From positions 1 through 9,920 of the forward strand of contig JAKAOC010000047.1 of NCBI GenBank assembly GCA_021823385.1: a stretch of 9,920 nt of DNA, written 5' to 3'. Both the position numbers and the translations under genes were made by a program. The notes under the pieces are model-generated. The model did not search any database and was not told where the DNA came from. It was given only the letters and a program-made list of their open reading frames with translations. Source of the DNA: Actinomycetes bacterium (GTDB lineage Bacteria > Actinomycetota > Acidimicrobiia > Acidimicrobiales > Acidimicrobiaceae). Every line of letters begins with the position of its first letter. Positions within the stretch are counted from its first letter, which is position 1. This document shows positions 1-9,920 of the stretch, piece after piece.

Positions 1-1284
1 GCCGAGATCATCGCCTTTGTCAATCAGGCCCTGCTCTCTCCGAACGTCAACGCGCTGCGCCGATTCGTATCGGCGCAGGACTACCTGCTCGACTCACTTC
101 TGAGCGCCGACCCGGTTGCCGCCCTGCTGGAGCGTCTTGCACCCTTGGTTCCCGCCGCTGTCGCCCTCTTGGAGGGAGGCGGCGGCGAGGTGCTCGCGGC
201 CAGCGAGACCATGGACGCGCGCACGTTGGCCGAGGTTCGCGAGTGCATCGAGCGCCAGAGCCCGTCGCCGGCCACCCCGGCGGGCCGCAACGCCAAGAGG
301 GCCGCGGAGGCCTCCGACTTCGGGGGCGCCGCGCTCACGCAGCTGATCGAATTCGACGCCGGCCACGGGCCCGGCCTTGCCCTGGCGGTGCAGCCGCCCA
401 GCCGCCCAGCCATGTGGCTCGCCCTGGTCGGAACCGCCGATTCGGGCGAGGCAGACTTCCAGCTGGCGCTTCCACTGGTACGCTCCGCCGGCCACATGCT
501 CTCCATCGCCCTGGAGACGCGCAGCGACCGCCTCGCCGAGAGACGGGCGCAGGAGAGGGCCCTGGTGGCAGAGGTTTGCGGCCTGCGGGCGGCCAAGGCC
601 CCGGCGGCCAAGAGCGCCCGCCCCCAGCTCGAACGCCTCTTCTCCTTGGGCATCGATTTCAGCGCACCTGCATGGGTCGTATGCGCAGCCGCTTCGGCCG
701 AGGTCGGCGACCCCGAGAGGGAATTCGGAGCTCGTCTCGACGAGCTGGAGAACCACCCGCCCTTGATCTGGGACACGACCGGAGAGGTGCTGGTGGCGAT
801 CGTGCAGTGCGACGAGGAGGCGCTGGCCAAAGAGCTGGGTGAACTGGCCGGCGGCCTCTACCATATCGGCGTCTCGTCGGCCTGCCAAGGCTACGCGGCC
901 CTTCCCGGCGCCTACCGCGAGGCAAATGCCGCCTTGGCCGAGCTGCTGGCCAACCCCCGTTCGGACGCGCCCCCCGGAATGCTCCTCTTCGACGAGGCCA
1001 GCATGACCACTTGGCTGATGGCCCAGGTCGACCTGCGCAAGCTGGCGGAAAAGCAGGAGCGCCGGCGCGCCCACCTCACGGTGGAGCGCCATGCCATCGT
1101 CACGCTGCGCTCATACCTGGAGTGCAACCTGGACATCAACCTCGCCGCCGCCCAACTCGGCATACACCCCAACTCCATGCGATACCGCCTGCACAAGGTG
1201 CGCGAGACCCAGGGAGTGCGGCTCGAGGACTTCGCCGAGCTGGTCGACCTCTACCTGGCCCTCAAGCTCCTGCCCGGCGGCTGA
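1..1284 (+). CDS. PucR/CdaR-type transcriptional regulator, 5' end cut off
   Basis: The reading frame is open from the first base, so the gene starts outside the window; 427 residues are visible. The C-terminal 60 residues or so (from about visible residue 369, around LRSYLECNLDINLAAAQLGI followed by HPNSMRYRLHKV) match the helix-turn-helix of PucR/CdaR regulators, in which an alpha-helical 'YLE.N.n...aA..L.iH.NtlryRL.k' block is characteristic. The preceding stretch, about residues 220-330, has the look of the GGDEF-like central domain of these proteins (G-V-S-S-A, then A-Y-R-E-A-N-A-A-L). The N-terminal part seen here is probably the sensor region and I cannot name its ligand. PucR-type proteins often activate neighbouring catabolic genes in response to a metabolite, so the aminotransferase and oxidoreductase downstream are candidate targets. 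Family assignment is firm; target and effector are inference. Confidence 0.88.
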   Translation, partial: AEIIAFVNQALLSPNVNALRRFVSAQDYLLDSLLSADPVAALLERLAPLVPAAVALLEGGGGEVLAASETMDARTLAEVRECIERQSPSPATPAGRNAKRAAEASDFGGAALTQLIEFDAGHGPGLALAVQPPSRPAMWLALVGTADSGEADFQLALPLVRSAGHMLSIALETRSDRLAERRAQERALVAEVCGLRAAKAPAAKSARPQLERLFSLGIDFSAPAWVVCAAASAEVGDPEREFGARLDELENHPPLIWDTTGEVLVAIVQCDEEALAKELGELAGGLYHIGVSSACQGYAALPGAYREANAALAELLANPRSDAPPGMLLFDEASMTTWLMAQVDLRKLAEKQERRRAHLTVERHAIVTLRSYLECNLDINLAAAQLGIHPNSMRYRLHKVRETQGVRLEDFAELVDLYLALKLLPGG

Positions 1285-1299
1285 ATGGCACGAAGGCCT

Positions 1300-1313
1300 C
1301 CCCCGGCCGGGGG
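1300..1313. repeat. GC-only perfect palindrome in the gap after the regulator
   Basis: The 14 bases CCCCCGGCCGGGGG form a perfect inverted repeat, 15 bases after the regulator's stop codon. As RNA it could fold as a 5-bp stem with a GGCC loop. No T-run follows, so it is not a canonical intrinsic terminator. It could be a U-less terminator, a protein-binding dyad or chance in GC-rich DNA. Confidence 0.4.
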
Positions 1314-1340
1314 GCGGCAAGTCCGTCGCGGGCGCCACGG

Positions 1341-1349
1341 TGCTATCTT
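1341..1349 (+). promoter_or_regulatory. Possible extended -10 promoter for the aminotransferase
   Basis: TGCTATCTT reads as an extended -10 element (TG, one base, then TATCTT, which fits TAnnnT). Transcription would begin near 1356, leaving a leader of about 27 bases that holds the AAAGGGG ribosome site at 1372-1378. No convincing -35 hexamer lies 16-18 bases upstream, so this would need an activator such as the PucR-type protein, or it is not a promoter. Confidence 0.3.
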
Positions 1350-1382
1350 GGTCACAAACCCGAAGCCGAGCAAAGGGGCAAC

Positions 1383-2642
1383 GTGACCGAGACAGCTTTC
1401 TGGCATCCCTTCGCAAACATGGCGGACGTAACCCGTAGCCGCCTCACTATTGCCGAAGCCAGCGGCAACTACGTTTACGACGATTCAGGGCGGCAGTACC
1501 TGGATGCGACCGCCTCCCTGTGGTATGCCAACGTGGGCCACGGGCGCAAGGAGATAGCCGACGCCATCAGCGCCCAGGCGGGCAAGCTCGCCGCTTATTC
1601 CACCTTCGCGGACATCACCAACGAACCGGCCGAGCTTCTGGCGGCCAAGGTGGCGGGGCACAGCCCGATGCCCGGCTCGAAGGTCTTCTTCGTCTCCGGT
1701 GGTGGCGACGCCGTCGACACCGCCGCCAAGCTGGCGCGCCGCTACTTCCACGAACTCGGCCATCCCGAGCGCCAGATCCTGGTGTCGCGGAAGGACAGCT
1801 ATCACGGCACACACGGGTTCGGCACCTCCCTGGCGGGAATGCCGGCCAACCGGGCCGGATACGGGGATCTGATCAACTCCGTCGCCCAGATCGACCGCGA
1901 CGATCCCGAGGACCTGGCGAGGCTGGCCGCCAACATCGGCGGCGAGCACATCGCCGCAGTCTTCGTGGAGCCGGTGATCGGGGCGGGCGGCGTGCACCTG
2001 CCCAAACCCGGCTACATCGAGCGCATCCGGGAGATCTGCACCAGCATCGGGGCTCTCCTGGTCATCGACTCGGTGATCTGCGGCTTCGGGCGCCTGGGCG
2101 AGTGGTTCGGGCCCGAGCGCTTCGGCGTGGTGCCGGACATGATCGCCTTTGCCAAAGGAATCACCAGTGGATATGTGCCCCTGGGCGGAGTGGTCGTCTC
2201 CGGCGAGGTCTCGGCCCCGTTCTTCGAGGGCAAAGGGGCGGCTTTCCGGCACGGGCCCACCTATGCCGGCCACCCGCTGGCCTGTGCCGCCGGCCTGGCA
2301 AACCTGCAGATAATGGAGCGCGAGAACCTCATAACCCGGGGCCGGACCTTGGAGGGCAGCCTGGCCGAGGCGCTCAACAGCACGCTGGACTCCCCTCTCA
2401 TCAGCGAAACCCGCGCCGGGCTGGGCCTGCTGGGCGCCATCGAAGTCGAGGCGGACGTGCTGAAGGAGCGCCCGGCCACGCTGGGGCGGATCCAGATGGC
2501 CATGCGCGAGCGTGGCGTACTGGTCCGCACGCTGCTCACCTCGATCGCGGTCTCCCCTCCCCTCACCGTCACCGAGGCGGAGATCGAGCGCATCGGCAAT
2601 GCCTTTGCCGACTCGCTGAAGCAGGTCGCCGCAGAGTCCTGA
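1383..2642 (+). CDS. Class III (omega/AdoMet-type) PLP-dependent aminotransferase
   Basis: This 419-residue protein has the usual length for a class III aminotransferase. It would transfer an amino group between an amine or amino acid and an oxo acid in the cytoplasm. Landmarks are the N-terminal 'FWHPF' and 'YLDATASLWYANVGHG' blocks, the 'SYHGTHG' segment, the PLP pyridine-binding aspartate D229 in IDSVICGFGRLGEWFG, the Schiff-base lysine K258 in DMIAFAKGITSGY, and GPTYAGHPLACAA near residue 300. Two normally conserved spots differ: the phosphate-binding NSGSEA block reads SGGGDA (about 105-110), and the usual DEV reads DSV. The GTG start at 1383 is chosen because AAAGGGG ends 4 bases before it and the homologous N-terminus begins there; the frame is open further upstream but that part does not resemble the family. 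Substrate is unknown: omega-amino acids, diamines and beta-alanine are all used by relatives. A quinone-oxidoreductase homologue follows after 50 bases. Confidence 0.9.
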   Translation: MTETAFWHPFANMADVTRSRLTIAEASGNYVYDDSGRQYLDATASLWYANVGHGRKEIADAISAQAGKLAAYSTFADITNEPAELLAAKVAGHSPMPGSKVFFVSGGGDAVDTAAKLARRYFHELGHPERQILVSRKDSYHGTHGFGTSLAGMPANRAGYGDLINSVAQIDRDDPEDLARLAANIGGEHIAAVFVEPVIGAGGVHLPKPGYIERIREICTSIGALLVIDSVICGFGRLGEWFGPERFGVVPDMIAFAKGITSGYVPLGGVVVSGEVSAPFFEGKGAAFRHGPTYAGHPLACAAGLANLQIMERENLITRGRTLEGSLAEALNSTLDSPLISETRAGLGLLGAIEVEADVLKERPATLGRIQMAMRERGVLVRTLLTSIAVSPPLTVTEAEIERIGNAFADSLKQVAAES

Positions 2643-2645
2643 GTG

Positions 2646-2661
2646 ACCCGCCGCGGCGGGT
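2646..2661. repeat. 16-bp perfect palindrome between aminotransferase and oxidoreductase
   Basis: ACCCGCCGCGGCGGGT is a perfect 16-bp palindrome starting 4 bases after the aminotransferase stop. With one mismatched pair it extends to 2643-2664, and GTGACCC occurs as a direct repeat at both ends (2643-2649 and 2660-2666). No T-run follows, so a standard intrinsic terminator is unlikely. It may be an operator or an RNA hairpin that sets the expression ratio of the two genes. Confidence 0.45.
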
Positions 2662-2692
2662 GACCCTCCAAAAGAATCCGAAAGGAGCAGCC

Positions 2693-3661
2693 GTGCGGGC
2701 GATACTCGTATCCAAGATCGGTGGCCCGGAGCAGCTCGTCCCGACCGAGCTGCCTGAGCGCGAGCCCGGCGCCGGCCAGGTGCGCATCCGCAACCTGCGG
2801 GCCTCGGTCAACTTCGCAGACCTGAAGGCGGTTGCCGGGAACTACCCGGTCTCCGGCATGCCCTTCGTCCCGGGCATCGACAGCTACGGCGTGATCGACG
2901 CCGTGGGCGCCGGTGTCGATGCGTCCTGGCTGGGCAAGCACGTCGTCGCCTTCGTCGATGACGGCGGCTATGCCGAGACCTCAACGGCCAGCCAAGGCCT
3001 CTTCTTCGAGATCCCGCCCGGCGTCGATCCGGACCAGGCGGGCGCCTCCCCACTGCTACTGGGTACCTGCTACGGCCTACTCACCAGAGCAGCGACGCTC
3101 AGCCCCGGCGACCGGGTGCTGGTGCATTCGGCCGCAGGCGGAATCGGGACCACCGCCATCCAGATGGCCGCCGCGTTGGGAGCCTCGACCGTGGTGGGAG
3201 TGGTCTCCAGCCCCGAGAAGGCTCCCATCGTCGAGGAGCTCGGCGCCAAGCCGGTGGTCGCGCTCGGTTCGGGCTTCGCCGATGCGGCAAAGCGAGCAGG
3301 CGGTGGGGACTTCCAGCTGATACTCAACGCGACCGGCGGCCCCACGGTGGCCGAGGATCTGGAGGTGCTGGCGCCCTTCGGGACACTGGTCGCCTTCGGG
3401 ATGGCGGCTGGAGAGCCCGGAGTGGTCCGGACCGACCAGCTCCACCCATCCGGCCGCACCGTAGCCGGCTACTCCTTCGGGCTGGTGCGCCGGATGCGCC
3501 CGGACAGGGTTGCACCGATGATGGATCCTGCGCTGGCCATGCTCAGGGATGGGCGGATTCGCATGGTGATCGACTCCGTGCTGGGGCTGGAGGAGGCCGA
3601 GAAGGCGCATCGGCGCATCGCCTCCCGCGAGTCGAAGGGAAAGATACTGCTCGTCCCCTAA
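2693..3661 (+). CDS. NAD(P)H:quinone oxidoreductase-type dehydrogenase (zinc-less MDR family)
   Basis: This 322-residue protein of the medium-chain dehydrogenase/reductase superfamily has the full length of the QOR-like (zeta-crystallin) branch. The N-terminal GroES-like domain contains 'VNFADLKAVAGNYP' and 'PFVPGIDSYGVIDAVGAGV'. The Rossmann domain carries the nucleotide-binding HSAAGGIG motif (H145 to G152), typical of NADPH-using quinone reductases and crotonyl-CoA reductase relatives. The catalytic and structural cysteine ligands of zinc-containing alcohol dehydrogenases are absent. It probably reduces a quinone or an alpha,beta-unsaturated carbonyl with NADPH. The GTG start is supported by AAAGGAG at 2681-2687, 5 bases before it. 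It lies 50 bases behind the aminotransferase and is probably co-transcribed with it, so it may act on the carbonyl product or on a related substrate; that link is inference. Confidence 0.88.
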   Translation: MRAILVSKIGGPEQLVPTELPEREPGAGQVRIRNLRASVNFADLKAVAGNYPVSGMPFVPGIDSYGVIDAVGAGVDASWLGKHVVAFVDDGGYAETSTASQGLFFEIPPGVDPDQAGASPLLLGTCYGLLTRAATLSPGDRVLVHSAAGGIGTTAIQMAAALGASTVVGVVSSPEKAPIVEELGAKPVVALGSGFADAAKRAGGGDFQLILNATGGPTVAEDLEVLAPFGTLVAFGMAAGEPGVVRTDQLHPSGRTVAGYSFGLVRRMRPDRVAPMMDPALAMLRDGRIRMVIDSVLGLEEAEKAHRRIASRESKGKILLVP

Positions 3662-3666
3662 CCCTC

Positions 3667-3688
3667 GGGCAGCGGCGCGCATCTGCCC
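3667..3688. promoter_or_regulatory. Dyad GGGCAG-N10-CTGCCC overlapping the mftA -35 region (candidate operator)
   Basis: Two perfect 6-base inverted arms (3667-3672 and 3683-3688) are separated by 10 bases. If transcription starts at 3706 the dyad spans about -39 to -18, where a -35 element would sit, and no TTGACA-like hexamer is present. Half-sites are 16 bp apart centre to centre, about one and a half helical turns. This suits a dimeric repressor or activator. A weak terminator for the gene before it is the alternative, but only TT follows the right arm. Confidence 0.4.
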
Positions 3689-3693
3689 TTCCC

Positions 3694-3699
3694 TATAAT
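3694..3699 (+). promoter_or_regulatory. Perfect -10 box TATAAT for a probably leaderless mftA transcript
   Basis: TATAAT is an exact consensus hexamer and stands out in this GC-rich DNA. Initiation 7 bases after the hexamer falls on the A of the mftA ATG at 3706. There is no Shine-Dalgarno sequence between the box and the ATG (only TTGAGCC), as expected of a leaderless mRNA, which is common in actinobacteria. The -35 position holds no consensus match. Confidence 0.68.
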
Positions 3700-3705
3700 T
3701 GAGCC

Positions 3706-3825
3706 ATGACCCAAGAGACGAGGACGCCGGTGGAGGAAATCGCCCAGGACCAGGACGGAGAACTCGTCGAGGACGACCTCGTCATCGAGGAGGTCTCCAT
3801 CGACGGCATGTGCGGCGTCTACTAG
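3706..3825 (+). CDS. mftA: Mycofactocin precursor peptide MftA
   Basis: This 39-residue peptide has an acidic leader and ends in SIDGMCGVY, which carries the invariant MftA C-terminus IDGMCGVY. In characterised systems MftB binds the leader, and MftC oxidatively decarboxylates the terminal tyrosine and then crosslinks it to the preceding valine (here V38 and Y39). MftE cuts after the glycine (here G37) to free the modified Val-Tyr, which MftD oxidises to premycofactocin. The leader is rich in Asp and Glu (for example QDQDGELVEDD, residues 14-24). The ATG coincides with the predicted transcription start of the TATAAT promoter, so translation is probably leaderless. mftB begins 11 bases after the stop, or inside the end of mftA if its GTG is used. 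Identification rests on an exact match to the family's signature tail and on mftB and mftC following directly. Confidence 0.97.
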   Translation: MTQETRTPVEEIAQDQDGELVEDDLVIEEVSIDGMCGVY

Positions 3826-3836
3826 CCGGGCCTGCC

Positions 3837-4112
3837 TTGGCCAACGAACGGCTGTCACTCAACCCCCGGATCTCGGTAAGGCCGGAGTCCTTCGGGGCGC
3901 TTTGCTACAACTTTGCGACCCGGGACCTTTTCTTGATCAAGTCGCGCCTCGCCCTGAGGCTGGCCGAGCTCGCGAAGGACGGAATTGACCGCGCAGAAGC
4001 GGAGCTGGCCCTGGGCACGCGGCCCGATCAGTTCACCAAACTGGTCGATGCCTTGGCTGCCAAGCAAGTGATACTTGTCAGCGAAGCCACAGGGAGCCCG
4101 GGCAATGAATGA
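3837..4112 (+). CDS. mftB: Mycofactocin chaperone MftB (precursor-recognition protein)
   Basis: This small protein, 91 residues from the TTG at 3837, belongs to the PqqD-like RRE-type family that binds the MftA leader and presents it to MftC. The signature is VRPESFGALCYNF (residues 14-26), followed by a 'TRDLFLIKSRLALRL' segment (28-42) and a helical C-terminus ending in a 'LAAKQVILVSE' strand, all in the order expected for MftB. The start is uncertain: TTG at 3837 has no ribosome site. A GTG at 3810 is also in frame, would overlap the end of mftA by 16 bases and adds 9 residues. GAGGAGG at 3787-3793 lies too far upstream (16 bases) to serve it well. Translation may depend on ribosomes finishing mftA. 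The 3' end overlaps mftC by 8 bases. Confidence 0.9.
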   Translation: MANERLSLNPRISVRPESFGALCYNFATRDLFLIKSRLALRLAELAKDGIDRAEAELALGTRPDQFTKLVDALAAKQVILVSEATGSPGNE

Positions 4113-5184
4113 CTCCCTGGCCGCCGCGCTGCGCGCCGGGCTCGACGCCCCAATCTGCCTGACCTGGGAGCTCACCTACGGCTGCAATCTCGCCTGCCGT
4201 CACTGCCTCTCCGACTCGGGGACGAAGGCTCCCGGCGAGCTCACCACCGGCGAAGCACTCTCGCTGATCGATGCGTTCGCCGAGATGGGGATCTTCTACG
4301 TGAACATCGGCGGGGGCGAGCCGATGATGCGCAGGGACTTCTTCCAAATCCTCGAGCATGCCGTCGCACGCAGGGTGGGGGTCAAGTTCTCCACCAACGG
4401 CACCTTCCTCGACGCCGACGCCGCCGAGAGGCTTGCCGCCATGGACTACGTGGACGTGCAGGTGTCCATCGACGGGCACGACGCCGCCACCAATGACGAC
4501 GTCCGCGGCGAGGGGTCATTCGCCAAGGCCGTCGCGGCGCTCGCCAACCTCGCAGCCGCGGGCTTCGCCAACCCCAAGATCTCGGTCGTGGCCACCAGGC
4601 ACAACATCGGCCACCTCGACGAGCTCGAGGCCTTGGCCAAGAGCCACGGCGCCGCCCTCAGGGTCACGCGCCTGCGCCCCTCGGGTCGCGGCGCGCTGAG
4701 CTACTCCGCGCTGCGCCCCACCGAACAGCAAAACCGGGAGCTTTTCGCCTGGCTCTCCGGCCGGCCCGAGGTTCTGACGGGCGACTCCTTCTTCCACCTC
4801 TCGCCGCTGGGCGATCCCCTGCCGGGCTTGAACATGTGCGGAGCCGGCAGAGTGGTCTGCCTGGTGGATCCGGTGGGCGATGTTTATGCCTGCCCGTTCA
4901 CAATCCACCCCGACTTCAAGGCCGGAAACGTCCGCGATACGGAGTTCTCCCGCATCTGGCGGAGCTCCGGGCTCTTCGCCGCCCTGCGGGCCGAGCCCGG
5001 ACCGTCCGGCTGCTCCAGCTGTGACGCCTATGCCTCCTGTCAAGGAGGCTGCATGGCCGCGAAGTTCCACACCGGCGCCGCCCTGGCCGATCCGGACCCG
5101 GAGTGCGTGATGGGGCGCGGTGCCAATGCGGTGGGCACCGTCGTCTCAATACGCCCACGGCGCAACGCCGTGGCCGCCCGCTAG
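4105..5184 (+). CDS. mftC: Mycofactocin radical SAM maturase MftC
   Basis: This 359-residue radical SAM/SPASM enzyme acts on the C-terminus of MftA bound to MftB. In known systems it uses S-adenosylmethionine first to decarboxylate the terminal tyrosine oxidatively and then to form a carbon-carbon bond to the neighbouring valine. The [4Fe-4S]-SAM motif CxxxCxxC is C27, C31 and C34 (YGCNLACRHC), followed by the 'GGGEP' SAM-binding motif near residues 70-75. The SPASM domain for auxiliary clusters has C245, C252, C263, then C303, C306, C312, C316 and C334, a full-looking set. ATG at 4105 is chosen because AGGGAG ends 8 bases upstream; a TTG at 4075 is possible but unsupported. It overlaps mftB by 8 bases, and the next gene starts 6 bases after its stop. 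Length is slightly below the mycobacterial homologue as I remember it. Nothing looks broken. Confidence 0.96.
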   Translation: MNDSLAAALRAGLDAPICLTWELTYGCNLACRHCLSDSGTKAPGELTTGEALSLIDAFAEMGIFYVNIGGGEPMMRRDFFQILEHAVARRVGVKFSTNGTFLDADAAERLAAMDYVDVQVSIDGHDAATNDDVRGEGSFAKAVAALANLAAAGFANPKISVVATRHNIGHLDELEALAKSHGAALRVTRLRPSGRGALSYSALRPTEQQNRELFAWLSGRPEVLTGDSFFHLSPLGDPLPGLNMCGAGRVVCLVDPVGDVYACPFTIHPDFKAGNVRDTEFSRIWRSSGLFAALRAEPGPSGCSSCDAYASCQGGCMAAKFHTGAALADPDPECVMGRGANAVGTVVSIRPRRNAVAAR

Positions 5185-5190
5185 GGGCGG

Positions 5191-7185
5191 ATGGTGACGA
5201 CCGGGCCACACTCGGCTCTGCTCCGGGCAGATCTGGTCCTGCATGGCCGGGGCCTGAAGAGCCGTGCGTACTTCGGCCCGCATCCCAGCAACCTCAACCG
5301 GCGTGAACGGTTCCGTCCCGCCTACGGGGACTACCTCGCCGCGCGGGCGGCGGGAGGAGCGGCGCTGTTGGTGAGCGAAGCCGCCTCCGTGAGCCCCGAC
5401 GACTGGCCCTACGAATACGCTCCGCTTCTGCCTGCAGCCGCCGGCTCGCTCGGAGCGGTGGCATCCCTGGTCCACCGAGAAGGTTCGCTGCTGTTGGCCG
5501 GCCTCGGCCATGCCGGGGGGCAGGGCTCGTCGGCCTACTCGCGCCAGGCGCTCTCGGCCCCGTCCCCCTTCGCCGAGACCACCGCCAACGAGATCTCCAG
5601 CCGGCTTGAGGAGGAGCGGATCGAGGAGATCGTGGCCGACTTCGCCTCCGCGGCGGAGGCGGCCCTTTCGGTGGGCTGCGACGGCGTGGAGGTCAACGCC
5701 GGTCAATACTCCCTGATACGCCAGTTCCTCTCGCCTTTGACCAACCAGAGGCAGGATCGCTGGGGCGAGGACCGCGCCCTCTTCGCGGCCAGGGTTCTGG
5801 GGGCCGTTCGTGAGCAGGTGCCCGAGGCGATAGTGGGGCTCAGACTCTGTGTGGACGAGCTCGCGCCCTGGGCGGGAATCCTGCCCACACACGCCGCCCG
5901 GATATTTGCCGGCCTGGAGGGATACGTCGACTACCTGGTGCTCGAGCGCGGATCAATCTACACCCAGCACTCGACCTGCCCTGATTTTCACGACGGAACC
6001 GGGTTCCTGGACGAGGCCGTGGAGGAGTTCAAGGGCGCGCGCGCCATTGCCGTCCCGCTCGCGGTGCTTGACGGCCGCGTCGGACTGGGAGAGGCCGAGG
6101 CCAGGCTGGAGCGGGGCGCCGTCCAGCTGGCCGAGCTCACCCGCCCTCTAATCGCCGACCCCGAAGCGCTGAACCGGCTCGCCGAGGGCAGCCCAGCCAG
6201 GCCGTGCGTCGCCTGCAACCAGGGATGTCAAGTGCGTGACCCTCGCAACCCGGTGGTGAGCTGCGCCTTCAACCCGGACGCAGGGCATGAGGCCGAAGCC
6301 GCGCGCCGCGTCGGCCGAGCGGTGCACGTCTCCGGGGCCCGTAGGCCGCCGTTGCTGATCGCAGGAGCCGGGATAGCAGGGATGGAGGCGGCCCTGGAAG
6401 CCTCCCGCCTCGGCATGAACGTTCAGCTATGGGACGCCTCGGATCATCCCGGCGGAGAGCTGCGGTTGCTCGCCGAGCGCGGGCTCAATCCCAATCTGGC
6501 CCGCATGCTCGACTACTACCTGACAGCCCTCGCCGACGCAAAGGTGGAGATATCCACCTCCTGCAGCCTGGATGCGGACGCCGCCCTCGCCGCCGCGCAA
6601 GGCGGTGGGCCCGTCCTGGTGGCCACGGGCGCCACTTATGCGCCCCGCCCGTGGAACCTGGGGCGGCTGGCCGCGGCGGGCATCGAAGGCGCGCCACTGC
6701 CGACCACGCCGGCGCAGGCTCTCCTGTCGCCGCCCGAATCCGGAGCCAAGGTGGCCGTTTTCGACCCCACCGGCGGGGCGTGGGCGATGACGGTCATCGA
6801 CGCGCTGCTCGCCTCGGGGGCCGAATTGACCTTGATCACCCCCGACCGGCTGGCCGGCTCGCAGCTCGCTCCGACCGGTGACCTGGTTCCCGCCGCCCAA
6901 CGCCTGGCAAGAGCGGGGGTGCGAGTCCTCACCGACTCCAACGTAACGGGGCTGGTCAAAGGCGGCGTTCGCGTCGAGCACCGCTTCGGCGGCGGTGGGC
7001 GGATGGTGGAGGCCGAGGTCCTGCTGGACTGCTCCCTTCCGGCGGCGCCGGGCGGCTGGCCCGAGCACCCGCTCCTGCGCCTGGCCGGAGACGCACTCGC
7101 CCCCAGGGGGTGGCAGGCGGCAATTCTCGATGCGCGCCGGGCGGTGGCCGAACTGGCGGCGGAGGTGGCCGGTGGCCGGCTTTAG
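5191..7185 (+). CDS. Mycofactocin-linked FadH/OYE-family flavoprotein, first copy
   Basis: This 664-residue protein has the length of E. coli 2,4-dienoyl-CoA reductase FadH (about 670) and of trimethylamine dehydrogenase. An N-terminal flavin TIM barrel (about 10-335) is followed by the [4Fe-4S] motif Cx2Cx3Cx11C at C339, C342, C346 and C358. A dinucleotide-binding GAGIAG (392-397) and a second Rossmann-like subdomain (about 515-600) follow. It resembles the family I know as 'mycofactocin system FadH/OYE family oxidoreductase 1'. The barrel is divergent: the usual LFSPLxIG entry motif is not recognisable, and in the active-site strand the normal H..N/H.Y positions read N169, Q172 and S174. 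The second Rossmann loop reads DPTGGAW (525-531) instead of a GxGxxG. It shares VSPDDWPYE with the copy downstream. The start is ATG 5191, 6 bases after mftC; no good ribosome site is seen, so translational coupling is likely. Substrate unknown. Confidence 0.88.
   Translation: MVTTGPHSALLRADLVLHGRGLKSRAYFGPHPSNLNRRERFRPAYGDYLAARAAGGAALLVSEAASVSPDDWPYEYAPLLPAAAGSLGAVASLVHREGSLLLAGLGHAGGQGSSAYSRQALSAPSPFAETTANEISSRLEEERIEEIVADFASAAEAALSVGCDGVEVNAGQYSLIRQFLSPLTNQRQDRWGEDRALFAARVLGAVREQVPEAIVGLRLCVDELAPWAGILPTHAARIFAGLEGYVDYLVLERGSIYTQHSTCPDFHDGTGFLDEAVEEFKGARAIAVPLAVLDGRVGLGEAEARLERGAVQLAELTRPLIADPEALNRLAEGSPARPCVACNQGCQVRDPRNPVVSCAFNPDAGHEAEAARRVGRAVHVSGARRPPLLIAGAGIAGMEAALEASRLGMNVQLWDASDHPGGELRLLAERGLNPNLARMLDYYLTALADAKVEISTSCSLDADAALAAAQGGGPVLVATGATYAPRPWNLGRLAAAGIEGAPLPTTPAQALLSPPESGAKVAVFDPTGGAWAMTVIDALLASGAELTLITPDRLAGSQLAPTGDLVPAAQRLARAGVRVLTDSNVTGLVKGGVRVEHRFGGGGRMVEAEVLLDCSLPAAPGGWPEHPLLRLAGDALAPRGWQAAILDARRAVAELAAEVAGGRL
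7161..7165 (+). promoter_or_regulatory. Shine-Dalgarno site that sets the start of the second flavoprotein
   Basis: GGAGG lies inside the end of the preceding gene, 6 bases before GTG 7172. It supports this GTG as the start, and the protein then begins just before the family's LFSPITIG motif. Confidence 0.75.
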
Positions 7186-9163
7186 ACACCTCTTCTCCCC
7201 CATCACCATCGGACGCATGCGCCTGGAGAACCGGATCGTCTTCTCCGCCCACCTGACCAACTACGCCGCCGACGGCCTTCCGGGGCCGGCGCACGCCGCG
7301 TACTACGAAGCCCGGGCCAAGGGCGGCGCCGGCCTCATAATCACCGAGGAGCACTCGGTGCATCCCAGCGATTGGCCCTACGAGAAGATGATCCACGGCT
7401 TCAAGCCGGAGGCGCTCCAGGGCTACCGCACCATCACCTCGGCCGTCCACCGTCATCCGGCGAAAATCATCGCCCAAATCAACCACAACGGTCCGCAAGG
7501 CTCTTCGATGTACTCGCGCCTTCCGCTACTCGGGCCGAGCCAGGTACCGGACCCTCTGTTCAGGGAGGTGCCCAAGGAGGCCACCGCCTCCGACCTGGCC
7601 CAGGTCGTGAACGGCTACCAGCTGGTTGCCGCGCGCGCCATGGAGGGCGGTTTCGACGGCGTGGAGCTGCAGTGCTCCCACTCCTCGATCGTCCGGGCCT
7701 TCCTCTCTCCGGCCAGCAACCACCGCGACGACGCCTACGGAGGCGACCTCAGGGGGCGAAGCAGGCTCATGCTGGAGATCGTCGCGGCGGTTCGCGATGC
7801 CATCGGCCCAGATCCGGCGCTAGGCGTGCGCCTCTCGGGCGACGAGATGATAGAGGACGGGACCACCCTCGAAGACGCGGTGGAGCTGGCCCGGATGCTC
7901 GAGGCCATTGGCGGCGTCGACTACATAAACACCTCCATAGGAGTGGCCACCGCCTCCCTCTACTCCATCGAGGCCTCCATGGCGATATCGCCCGGCTACG
8001 CCCTCTTCATTCCATCCGCGATACGCAAGGCGGTCAACCTCCCGGTGGTGGGTGTGGGGCGCATCAAGGACCCCCTGCAGGCCGAGAAAGCGCTTGCCGC
8101 CGGCCACTGCGACCTTGTGGGCATGGTGCGCGCGCAGATCGCCGACCCCGAGCTGGCCTCCAAGTCCCGCCTGGGACGGACGCGCGACATCCGCCTATGC
8201 CTCTCCTGCAACCAGGAGTGCGTGGGCAGGGTGGGAATGAACCGCTGGCTGGGTTGCATCGAGAACCCCAATGCGGGCAGGGAGTATCTCCCGCCGCCGT
8301 CCCGGTTCACCCGCCCGTCCTCTCCGCGGGTGGCGGTGATCGGCGCCGGGCCCGCCGGCTGCCAGGCGGCGATCTCGCTCGCCCGCGCGGGGGCGATGGT
8401 GGCGCTCGTCGAAGCCGGGGATCAGCTCGGTGGCCAGCTGGCCTGGGCGGGCCGTGTCGCCTCCCGTGCCGAGCTGACCGACCTGGTGCGCAACCAGCGC
8501 AACGAGCTCGCCTCGCTCGGCATCGAGCCCGAGTTCGGCCGGCTGATCCGGCCCGAGGACATCCCGCTCCTCGGCGCAGACGCCGTTGTGGTGGCGACCG
8601 GATCCCGCGACGTCGCCCCCGACTGGGCCACCGATGGTGGCGAGCGCGCGATGCGGGTCATCTCGGCGCGCCGACTCATGGCAGAAGGTCCGCGCGTGCC
8701 TCCCGGAGCCACCGCGGTCGTCTACGACGAGGTCGGCTTTCACCAGGCGACCTCGGCCGCCGAACTCCTTTGGGAGATGGGCGTAAAGGTTCACTTTGCC
8801 ACCCCGTTACTGGTGGCGGGCCAGGACTTGGGGATCACCCTCGACTACGAATCCTTCCGGATGCGCGCCGCCTCCCACGACGTGAAGTTCCACACGGCGG
8901 TGATAGCCACCGCAGCCGGGACACGAGGGGTCTCGCTGTTCAACCATCTCGACGGTGGCTTGCTCGAGCTGGAGGCGGACCTTCTCGTTCTCTCCCTACA
9001 TGCCGCGGCGGAGGACTCGCTCTATCGGGCTGCGCGCGCCGGCGGAGTGCCAGCACTGCGCATCGGCGACGCCCTCAGCCCGCGCCGGGCGCACTCGGCG
9101 GTCATCGAAGGCGACAGTGCTCCCGGTCTGATTGCCGGCCTTCTCAAGGGGGGCTCGGCATGA
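7172..9163 (+). CDS. Mycofactocin-linked FadH/OYE-family flavoprotein, second copy
   Basis: This 663-residue protein is a paralogue of the gene before it, with the same domain order: FMN barrel starting at LFSPITIGRMRLENRIV, [4Fe-4S] motif Cx2Cx3Cx11C (C343, C346, C350, C362), GAGPAG (391-396) with EAGDQLGGQL after it, and a second Rossmann-like part. It resembles the family I know as 'mycofactocin system FadH/OYE family oxidoreductase 2'. Its barrel is more canonical than that of the first copy. The active-site strand reads Q167, C168, S169, H170, S171, S172: the histidine equivalent to old yellow enzyme N194 is kept, but the tyrosine position is serine. The NADPH loop of FadH (GCGGIG) is replaced by YDEVGFH (518-524), much like trimethylamine-dehydrogenase-type proteins that pass electrons to ETF. 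The gene overlaps the preceding one by 14 bases and the ETF-like gene by 4, so these three are very probably co-translated partners. It may form a complex with the first copy; that is inference. Confidence 0.92.
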   Translation: MAGFRHLFSPITIGRMRLENRIVFSAHLTNYAADGLPGPAHAAYYEARAKGGAGLIITEEHSVHPSDWPYEKMIHGFKPEALQGYRTITSAVHRHPAKIIAQINHNGPQGSSMYSRLPLLGPSQVPDPLFREVPKEATASDLAQVVNGYQLVAARAMEGGFDGVELQCSHSSIVRAFLSPASNHRDDAYGGDLRGRSRLMLEIVAAVRDAIGPDPALGVRLSGDEMIEDGTTLEDAVELARMLEAIGGVDYINTSIGVATASLYSIEASMAISPGYALFIPSAIRKAVNLPVVGVGRIKDPLQAEKALAAGHCDLVGMVRAQIADPELASKSRLGRTRDIRLCLSCNQECVGRVGMNRWLGCIENPNAGREYLPPPSRFTRPSSPRVAVIGAGPAGCQAAISLARAGAMVALVEAGDQLGGQLAWAGRVASRAELTDLVRNQRNELASLGIEPEFGRLIRPEDIPLLGADAVVVATGSRDVAPDWATDGGERAMRVISARRLMAEGPRVPPGATAVVYDEVGFHQATSAAELLWEMGVKVHFATPLLVAGQDLGITLDYESFRMRAASHDVKFHTAVIATAAGTRGVSLFNHLDGGLLELEADLLVLSLHAAAEDSLYRAARAGGVPALRIGDALSPRRAHSAVIEGDSAPGLIAGLLKGGSA

Positions 9164-9920
9164 GCGTGAGCCGCGACATCCTGATCGTCGCAGTGGGCTG
9201 TGACGCCGGCCAAGCCGTCTCCCCGCTGACGGGAGGCGCCGGCACCTACCGCGTCCTGGCTCTTGGGACTCCAGGACGGAGCGATGAATCGCGGCCCGAA
9301 CGCCGCGGGCTCCCCGCCGGGGCCTTCCGGCTGCATGGCGCCGACCTGCTCAGCCGGCGCGAGCTCGCACTGGTCGTCGCCGAGGTGGCCAGCCGGGTGG
9401 GAGCGCACATGGTCGTCCTGGCCGGCGCCCAGGACGCGGTCGAGCTGCTCGGCCACACGGCCAAGGCATTGCAAATGCCGATTCTCGGCCAGGTCGCCGA
9501 GGTTCGGGGCGCGGTCCTGAGAAGTGTGGAGCGCGAAGGCGTCCAGCTCGGCTACCCCATCTCCTCGGGCTCGGGAGTGGCCCACTTCGCGGTGCCGGAG
9601 CACGCGGTGACCCCTTTGGCGGCCATGGAGGGCGCGGTGGGCAGGCCGCCCGCCCGGTCACTCAAGATCCGCCGAGGCCGTGGGAACGTGGCCTGGGTGA
9701 CCGATGGCGGCGCGGAGCTCGGTACCGGCCCGATCGTCCTGGGGGGAGCGCCCGGGTCGGTGACCTCGCGCAGCTGCGAGGCGGTTCCACGGGGGGCCGG
9801 CACGGCGAAACTGAGCGAGGCCGGAGTGGTGATCGCCGCCGGCGCCGGGGTGGGCGAAGCCGGTGTGTCGGCGATGCTCGCCGAGGCGTCGCAGCGGCTC
9901 GGAGTCTCCTTCGGGGCTAC
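9160..9920 (+). CDS. Electron-transfer flavoprotein alpha-subunit-like protein, 3' end cut off
   Basis: The frame is open from ATG 9160 to the window edge, 253 complete codons. ETF alpha is normally 300 residues or more, so roughly the last 60-80 are missing. The N-terminal half has an ETF-type nucleotide-binding-like fold (VVAEVASRVGAHMVVLAGAQ, then GHTAKALQMPILGQV). The C-terminal stretch 'GVVIAAGAGVG...LAEASQRLGVSFGAT' (about 222-254) corresponds to the FAD-binding 'ivvsgGRGvg...lA..LGaavGaSR' block of ETF alpha. The canonical GGRG reads AGAG here, a departure in the FAD region. The ATG overlaps the previous stop (ATGA), and AAGGGGGG at 9146-9153 is a good ribosome site 6 bases upstream. 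ETF takes electrons from flavin dehydrogenases and feeds them to ETF:quinone oxidoreductase. The beta subunit, often encoded first, is not upstream and may follow downstream. Confidence 0.82.
   Translation, partial: MSVSRDILIVAVGCDAGQAVSPLTGGAGTYRVLALGTPGRSDESRPERRGLPAGAFRLHGADLLSRRELALVVAEVASRVGAHMVVLAGAQDAVELLGHTAKALQMPILGQVAEVRGAVLRSVEREGVQLGYPISSGSGVAHFAVPEHAVTPLAAMEGAVGRPPARSLKIRRGRGNVAWVTDGGAELGTGPIVLGGAPGSVTSRSCEAVPRGAGTAKLSEAGVVIAAGAGVGEAGVSAMLAEASQRLGVSFGA

Follow-up and report, generated by a model that had tools for sequence, protein, structure and literature searches.

Gene content and organization of the locus

We examined a 9920-nucleotide stretch of contig JAKAOC010000047.1 from an actinobacterium of the family Acidimicrobiaceae (hereafter, the window), in which a mycofactocin biosynthetic cassette runs directly into genes for two Fe–S flavoproteins, here called OYE1 and OYE2, and an electron transfer flavoprotein (ETF). 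All of these genes lie on the + strand. The cassette begins with mftA (3706..3825), which encodes the mycofactocin precursor peptide with the C terminus IDGMCGVY and matches TIGR03969 (43.6 bits, cut-off 25) and PF23709. It continues with mftB (3810..4112, starting at GTG 3810 or TTG 3837), encoding the peptide chaperone (TIGR03967, 51 bits, cut-off 33), and with mftC (4105..5184), encoding the radical SAM/SPASM maturase (TIGR03962, 532 bits, cut-off 265). After an intergenic gap of 6 bases come OYE1 (5191..7185), an Fe–S flavoprotein of the trimethylamine dehydrogenase (TMADH)/FadH type, OYE2 (7172..9163), a second Fe–S flavoprotein, and the gene for a divergent, mycofactocin-associated ETF alpha subunit (9160..9920), which is interrupted by the end of the window. 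The overlap between OYE1 and OYE2 amounts to 14 bases if GTG 7172 is the start of OYE2, and that between OYE2 and the ETF gene to 4 bases. A preliminary description of this DNA had named the same succession of genes, with its short gap and overlapping frames, and the family scores and coordinates confirm it.

OYE2 belongs to TIGR03997, which it matches at 820.8 bits against a cut-off of 793. For OYE1, the best of all families is TIGR03996, at a score of 482 bits that falls under the curated cut-off of 628; we do not file it as a member, although its position in the operon matches that of relatives scoring above the cut-off. The 253-residue ETF fragment of the window had no family match in the profile search. 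Its full-length counterpart, P0001 (349 residues), is scored as 100% identical over the fragment, with one residue different by eye, and through it the gene is assigned to the ETF alpha FAD domain family PF00766 (82 bits). The ETF alpha protein of a related locus, L018, scores 145 bits with NF038209 (mft_etfA), under the cut-off of 240, and is likewise not counted as a member. NCBIfam already names the association of these flavoproteins and ETF with mycofactocin: the descriptions of TIGR03996, TIGR03997, and NF038209, the families nearest OYE1, OYE2, and ETF alpha, call them mycofactocin-associated and give no reaction or function. Because the order mftA-mftB-mftC-OYE1-OYE2-ETF alpha recurs in relatives, it is not a chance arrangement.

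Upstream of mftA, positions 1 to 3661 of the + strand encode a PucR-type regulator that is open at the window start, a class III aminotransferase, and a PIG3-like quinone oxidoreductase. L018 has open reading frames of like size and order upstream of its mftA.

The operon continues with ETF and Fix genes in relatives

The window stops within etfA, and contig C134 of genome G000 stops within OYE2, so the remainder of the operon is described from relatives. The OYE2 proteins of loci L016 and L018 are 90% and 81% identical to that of the window, and in these operons OYE2 is followed by etfA, fixC, fixX, etfB, mftE, and the gene for a mycofactocin-type short-chain dehydrogenase/reductase (SDR); the succession FixC-FixX-ETF beta-mftE is found in L016 to L018. 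FixC of the relatives matches FixC models and the ubiquinone-binding domain of ETF:quinone oxidoreductase, FixX is a 93-residue protein with 4Fe-4S domains, and ETF beta belongs to PF01012. On paper, then, the predicted electron relay is complete, leading from the flavoproteins through ETF and FixC/FixX to quinone. The whole set OYE1-OYE2-etfA-fixC-fixX-etfB is placed between mftC and mftE in L016, L018, G402, G443, and G461. In L016, the nearest relative of the window, the SDR is followed by a queuosine-salvage protein (PF10343; 10733-11767), which is unrelated.

Three genomes of family f48 (L156, L157, and L158) combine a divergent MftC (325-340 bits) and the MftA motif with OYE2, ETF alpha, FixC, and FixX but have no OYE1, an arrangement that we take for a module either reduced or still at an early stage. 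In G028 (L159), the OYE1 and OYE2 matches lie within longer open frames (1107 and 1070 residues), possibly through frame overlap or an assembly problem. The window species also has a second Fe–S flavoenzyme on another contig (L009:1495-3453 and 3660-4946, − strand), which scores 587 bits with TIGR03997. It overlaps an aldo/keto-reductase-like frame and adjoins a replicative-helicase-like protein that by eye apparently bears an intein.

Mycofactocin genomes that lack MftD carry OYE2

MftD (TIGR03966) converts AHDP to premycofactocin (PMFT), and the study of its deletion in M. smegmatis reports that PMFT is abolished and AHDP accumulates (PMC7491314). There is no mftD in the window or in the clusters of its nearest relatives. 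That TIGR03966 occurs in most, not all, mycofactocin species was already noted by Haft 2011 (PMC3023750), and the BGCFlow study describes Saccharopolyspora clusters in which mftD is missing and TIGR03997, whose function it calls unknown, is present (PMC11162802).

To relate these genes at the level of genomes, we used two samples. The phylum sample holds 396 genomes from the window's own phylum with a requested completeness of at least 90%, plus G000 (82.75%); the order sample holds 298 genomes from the order of G270, which has an mftABCDEFG cluster of the mycobacterial type. OYE2 was called at the TIGR03997 cut-off of 793 bits among the best three candidates per genome in the phylum sample and at E 1e-200 in the order sample. 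MftC scored above cut-off in 73 of the 396 phylum-sample genomes, and MftD did so in 57 of these. The other 16 are exactly the OYE2 carriers (Fisher 2e-16, these tests ignoring the relatedness of genomes), and OYE2 was found in 0 of the 57 MftD-positive genomes. Thirteen genomes exceed the OYE2 cut-off and three fall just under it (G000, 788 bits; G378, 787 bits, where the contig cuts the gene; G326, 764 bits); all 57 MftD-positive and all 323 MftC-negative genomes stay under 760 bits, and the highest score among them is the 654 of G375.

In the order sample, OYE2 occurs in 36 genomes, all of them within the 159 that are MftC-positive. The test for MftD covered 80 MftC-positive genomes, namely these 36 and 44 OYE2-negative ones spread across families, and MftD is present in 44 of 44 OYE2-negative and 32 of 36 OYE2-positive genomes. 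The four without it (G402, G436, G443, and G461) all carry OYE2. The strict mutual exclusion of MftD and OYE2 that is true of the phylum sample therefore fails in the order sample, where 32 of 36 genomes have both, and is replaced by a weaker rule that holds in both samples: absence of MftD implies OYE2, and OYE2 does not imply absence of MftD. Taken together, 20 of 20 MftD-less MftC-positive genomes carry OYE2, and among the 153 MftC-positive genomes tested there is no MftD-less genome without it.

The genomic position of MftD matters for reading earlier reports. The gene lies outside the fetched cluster stretch in 30 of the 36 OYE2-positive order-sample genomes, and within the stretch beside OYE1/OYE2 only in G588 and G627, as it also does in L040 (Speluncibacter); L262, L263, and many genomes of both samples likewise show it far from the mft cluster. 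Claims of missing mftD that are based on clusters thus do not show absence from the genome, and we set aside the Saccharopolyspora observation as proof. We also rejected a weak MftD paralogue as the substitute, since at E 1e-60 only G247, G253, G378, and G382 have a match (252-303 bits, under the cut-off) and 12 of the 16 genomes have none; at E 0.001, G000 gives partial MftD matches of up to 157 bits. TIGR03966 is absent from the 15 families of OYE1 and from the best 25 of OYE2, and what we claim with respect to MftD is a likeness in function only.

In their other genes, MftD-less clusters resemble those of mycofactocin makers: within the fetched stretches, the 20 genomes have mftC (20 of 20), the mftA motif (19 of 20; in G436 the contig ends), mftE (13), and mftF (14). 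Because the gene for the MftD step is missing in all 20 of these OYE2-bearing genomes, the pathway has a hole that OYE2 could fill. We slightly favor, on this comparative evidence, the reading that OYE2, together with OYE1 where present, a dedicated ETF, and FixC/FixX constitutes an alternative premycofactocin synthase that replaces MftD.

The tie between OYE2 and mycofactocin is close. At the thresholds used, OYE2 was found in 0 of 323 MftC-negative genomes in the phylum sample and 0 of 139 in the order sample, so OYE2 is specific to mft genomes. A wide spread outside them, which would have counted against the preliminary description, is not seen. This specificity, like the placement of the module between mftC and mftE in several clusters, speaks against a role in oxidizing an external amine or alcohol through ETF, using or depending on mycofactocin but unrelated to its synthesis. 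Such a role also leaves the loss of MftD unexplained, and we regard it as very improbable, even though three enzymes of like build (TMADH, histamine dehydrogenase, and Pno) dehydrogenate amines in catabolism and the L018 operon includes a mycofactocin-type SDR. The earlier suggestion of an ETF-linked amine dehydrogenase nevertheless comes close to the reading we favor, with the difference that the amine would be AHDP, the cofactor's own precursor, and not a separate substrate.

ETF and Fix genes accompany OYE2 where MftD is missing

etfA is present in all 16 MftD-less phylum-sample genomes, with the window counted for G000. FixC, of the ETF:quinone oxidoreductase type, is found in 14 of the 16, the exceptions, G378 and G000, being those in which the contig or the window ends. 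The ETF genes are not always next to mftC; they lie on another contig in G088, G178, G314, and G366 and tens of kilobases away in G253 and G382. Among the 73 MftC-positive genomes of this sample, mft_etfA is above cut-off in 11 and OYE1 is found at E 1e-120 in 13, all of them within the 16.

For the order sample, ETF and Fix genes were sought within the fetched stretches of up to 20 kb, and the 44 OYE2-negative genomes were assumed to lack the ETF module because they lack OYE2. Nine of the 36 OYE2-positive stretches have the full set etfA-fixC-fixX-etfB: those of G402, G436, G443, and G461, which are MftD-less, and those of G490, G573, G644, G656, and G660. The other 27, all from MftD-positive genomes, have an ETF-alpha-like gene alone (4) or neither (23).

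OYE1 and OYE2 are built like ETF-linked amine dehydrogenases

AlphaFold2 models of OYE2 and OYE1 were predicted with mean confidence (pLDDT) of 91.6 and 90.8. Both proteins combine an OYE barrel with two nucleotide domains and a CxxCx3Cx11C motif, the domain order and [4Fe-4S] motif of TMADH and histamine dehydrogenases. In OYE1, the motif is C339-x2-C342-x3-C346-x11-C358 (6205..6264, + strand), with the four cysteines kept in 62 of 68 OYE1 rows of the alignment; in OYE2, it is C343-x2-C346-x3-C350-x11-C362 (8198..8257, + strand), kept in 79 of 80 OYE2 rows. The first GxGxxG is kept in 80 of 80 OYE2 rows. The second nucleotide domain has lost the NAD(P)H GxGxxG in every row: at that site, OYE2 has D519xxG522 (8726..8737, + strand; 80 of 80 rows) and OYE1 has D525xxG528 (68 of 68 rows). 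The aspartate of the OYE2 motif is shared with two histamine dehydrogenases and with structure 6l6j, whereas the Escherichia coli 2,4-dienoyl-CoA reductase (DCR) has GCGGIG. As in TMADH, where His172 stands at the aligned place, OYE2 has an active-site histidine, His170 (7679..7681, + strand). OYE2 is not TMADH proper: the position of TMADH Cys30, through which FMN is covalently bound, is Leu28 in 80 of 80 OYE2 rows, and other active-site residues differ as well.

The FadH/OYE kinship in the family name hints at NAD(P)H-dependent enoyl reductases, and E. coli DCR is indeed the nearest solved sequence by score for both proteins; the fold search does not tell amine dehydrogenases from CoA reductases, both lying equally close to the two models. 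The catalytic tyrosine of DCR is aligned to Ser172 of OYE2 (78 of 80 rows), and OYE2 is accordingly not a classical ene-reductase. With the NAD(P)H glycine motif lost throughout and the proteins linked to ETF and FixCX, reduction of enoyl substrates is extremely improbable. The preserved cluster cysteines, the lost NAD(P)H motif, and the FixC/FixX of relatives instead bear out the earlier view that these are flavoproteins of the trimethylamine/histamine dehydrogenase type tied to ETF.

Certain OYE2 residues follow the ETF genes. His170 is present in 52 of 52 rows with the ETF module versus 6 of 28 rows without ETF-Fix genes in the cluster, where Gln stands in 22 of 28; Arg440 is present in 52 of 52 versus 11 of 28, and Asn441 in 52 of 52 versus 6 of 28. 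Arg440 and Asn441 sit only a few positions away from the insertion in which TMADH has Tyr442, an ETF-docking residue. A review of these enzymes states only that the cluster donates the electrons to ETF, with a tyrosine as the probable route (PMC8097209). More broadly, of 141 OYE2 sites fixed in ETF-module rows, 16 are kept in fewer than 70% of the other rows, as against 2 of 98 in the reverse direction; the same comparison for OYE1 gives 1 of 81 and 6 of 112 and thus no such drift. His170 disappears together with the ETF genes in about 2.8 of 3 independent events, and the residue is kept in L040, L251, and four clusters with an ETF-alpha-like gene.

Phylogenetic distribution of the module

On an MftC tree of 87 sequences, the presence of MftD switches 7 times, and for the module group without MftD the starred branches require no fewer than 4 switches. 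When independent pairs with unlike ETF-module states are compared, MftD takes the opposite direction in 4 and the same direction in 0, with 3 ties (p 0.125). Near neighbors may differ, as in G247, which has the module without MftD, and its sisters G099 and G338, which have MftD without OYE2. When the OYE2 tree is rooted with OYE1, whose long branch makes the root uncertain, the early-diverging lineages carry ETF genes and, as far as MftD was tested in them, lack it. Departure of the ETF genes from the cluster occurs 3 times, all within one clade and all in MftD-positive genomes.

MftG and the reoxidation of mycofactocinol

The preliminary description had proposed that the module might serve as a mycofactocinol dehydrogenase. 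In this reading, it would replace MftG, a flavoprotein that also links mycofactocin chemistry to the respiratory chain but belongs to the GMC family, differs from the module flavoproteins, and acts on the reduced cofactor; electrons would pass via ETF and FixC/FixX to the quinone pool. MftG, called by TIGR03970 alone without the Gordonia and Dietzia models named in PMC11778925, does not appear among the family matches of the proteins in the window. As this reading predicts, it is above cut-off in 0 of 16 and 0 of 9 ETF-module genomes of the two samples versus 18 of 57 and 38 of 71 others (0 of 25 versus 56 of 128 overall). The same holds within the OYE2-positive order-sample genomes (0 of 9 with the ETF module versus 20 of 27). 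With the PMFT midpoint of −255 mV given in PMC7491314, reoxidation through ETF and quinone would be downhill, and Graca et al. leave open what serves in the approximately 25% of mft genomes without MftG (PMC11778925).

As the main role, MftG replacement leaves the MftD step empty in 20 of 20 MftD-less genomes. Moreover, 39 phylum-sample genomes with MftC and MftD have neither TIGR03970 MftG nor OYE2, although other MftG models might find some, and OYE2 coexists with above-cut-off MftG in 20 of the 52 OYE2-positive genomes. The contrast in MftG itself leans on weak matches, 13 of these 20 passing the cut-off only when the scores of separate pieces are added. With a floor of 570 bits, it becomes 0 of 25 ETF-module versus 22 of 128 other genomes (p 0.026), and in the order sample (0 of 9 versus 6 of 71) it vanishes; on the MftC tree, MftG carries almost no information (median 1 opposite, 6 ties). 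Genomes with neither MftG nor OYE2 are common, while none with neither MftD nor OYE2 was found among the 153 tested, and we demoted MftG replacement as a sole role; we consider it unlikely.

The two functions might instead be joined, with OYE2 making PMFT and OYE1, or the same enzyme, reoxidizing mycofactocinol at the same carbon, so that one ETF/FixCX chain would replace both MftD and MftG. Of the 25 ETF-module genomes, 22 have two paralogues sharing a single ETF chain, all 25 lack above-cut-off MftG, and 20 lack MftD; in clusters without the ETF genes, moreover, OYE1 and OYE2 differ in how they evolve. Against this stand G176, G309, and G325, MftD-less genomes that have OYE2 with no OYE1 at E 1e-120 and no MftG above cut-off, and the continued conservation of OYE1 in clusters without ETF genes. 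We think this dual role rather doubtful. As a fair guess, OYE1 may reoxidize mycofactocinol.

Discussion

In the synthase reading that we favor, MftC would cyclize the Val-Tyr core and MftE would free AHDP, from whose C3-NH position OYE2 would move two electrons onto FMN. The resulting imine would hydrolyze to the C3 ketone, giving PMFT, and the electrons would travel from FMN to the [4Fe-4S] cluster and on through ETF and FixC/FixX to quinone; we infer the substrate, the direction, and the electron path of the reaction. Two observations make OYE2, rather than OYE1, the proposed deaminase: OYE1 is lacking from three MftD-less genomes that carry OYE2 and ETF genes, and of the two proteins OYE2 alone changes in clusters without the ETF genes.

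Known systems offer precedents for parts of this scheme. The proposed step, oxidative deamination of AHDP to PMFT by a flavoenzyme, is that of MftD, which belongs to a different, lactate-dehydrogenase-like family; we know of no Fe–S cluster or ETF partner for MftD. TMADH, like OYE2 as proposed, passes electrons to ETF, and histamine dehydrogenase likewise carries Asp where the NAD(P)H motif would stand, but both bind FMN covalently. A parallel in both binding and chemistry is Pno, acting with EtfAB and Euo. PMC7688666 describes the Agrobacterium S33 enzyme as TMADH-like, with noncovalent FMN, [4Fe-4S], and ADP, deaminating an amine with water-derived oxygen and passing electrons to EtfAB and ETF:quinone oxidoreductase, both encoded in the Pno cluster. 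Pno thus shares with the module the Fe–S flavoprotein and the clustered ETF and ETF:quinone oxidoreductase genes, and its oxidative deamination is what we propose for OYE2. It differs in its role in nicotine catabolism as a 6-hydroxypseudooxynicotine dehydrogenase. Structure 6l6j, from a close relative of Pno, is among the nearest to OYE2 (27% identical in the structure alignment) and shares its Asp-type second nucleotide domain.

A wider scenario, which we offer tentatively, is that a single OYE1/OYE2-ETF-FixC/FixX respiratory branch makes the ketone without MftD and reoxidizes the spent cofactor without MftG, wiring both reactions to the quinone pool, and that this branch was ancestral in the OYE2 clade and was dismantled where MftD and MftG are present.

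What is new here is that absence of mftD is tied to the OYE2 module. By title, abstract opening, or passages, with the subscription literature largely outside this coverage, we found no proposal that a flavoprotein-ETF-Fix set replaces MftD. MftD is treated as required for mycofactocin, and the mycofactocin rule of antiSMASH 6.1.1, as described in PMC11162802, demands it, yet groups of Actinobacteria have the cluster without MftD. If the module is the substitute, it would explain how the cofactor can be synthesized in these organisms and would give a function to three named, uncharacterized families. It would also correct a detection rule under which such clusters are wrongly assigned to the ranthipeptides, and it may be a candidate for what serves where MftG is missing, the question raised in PMC11778925.

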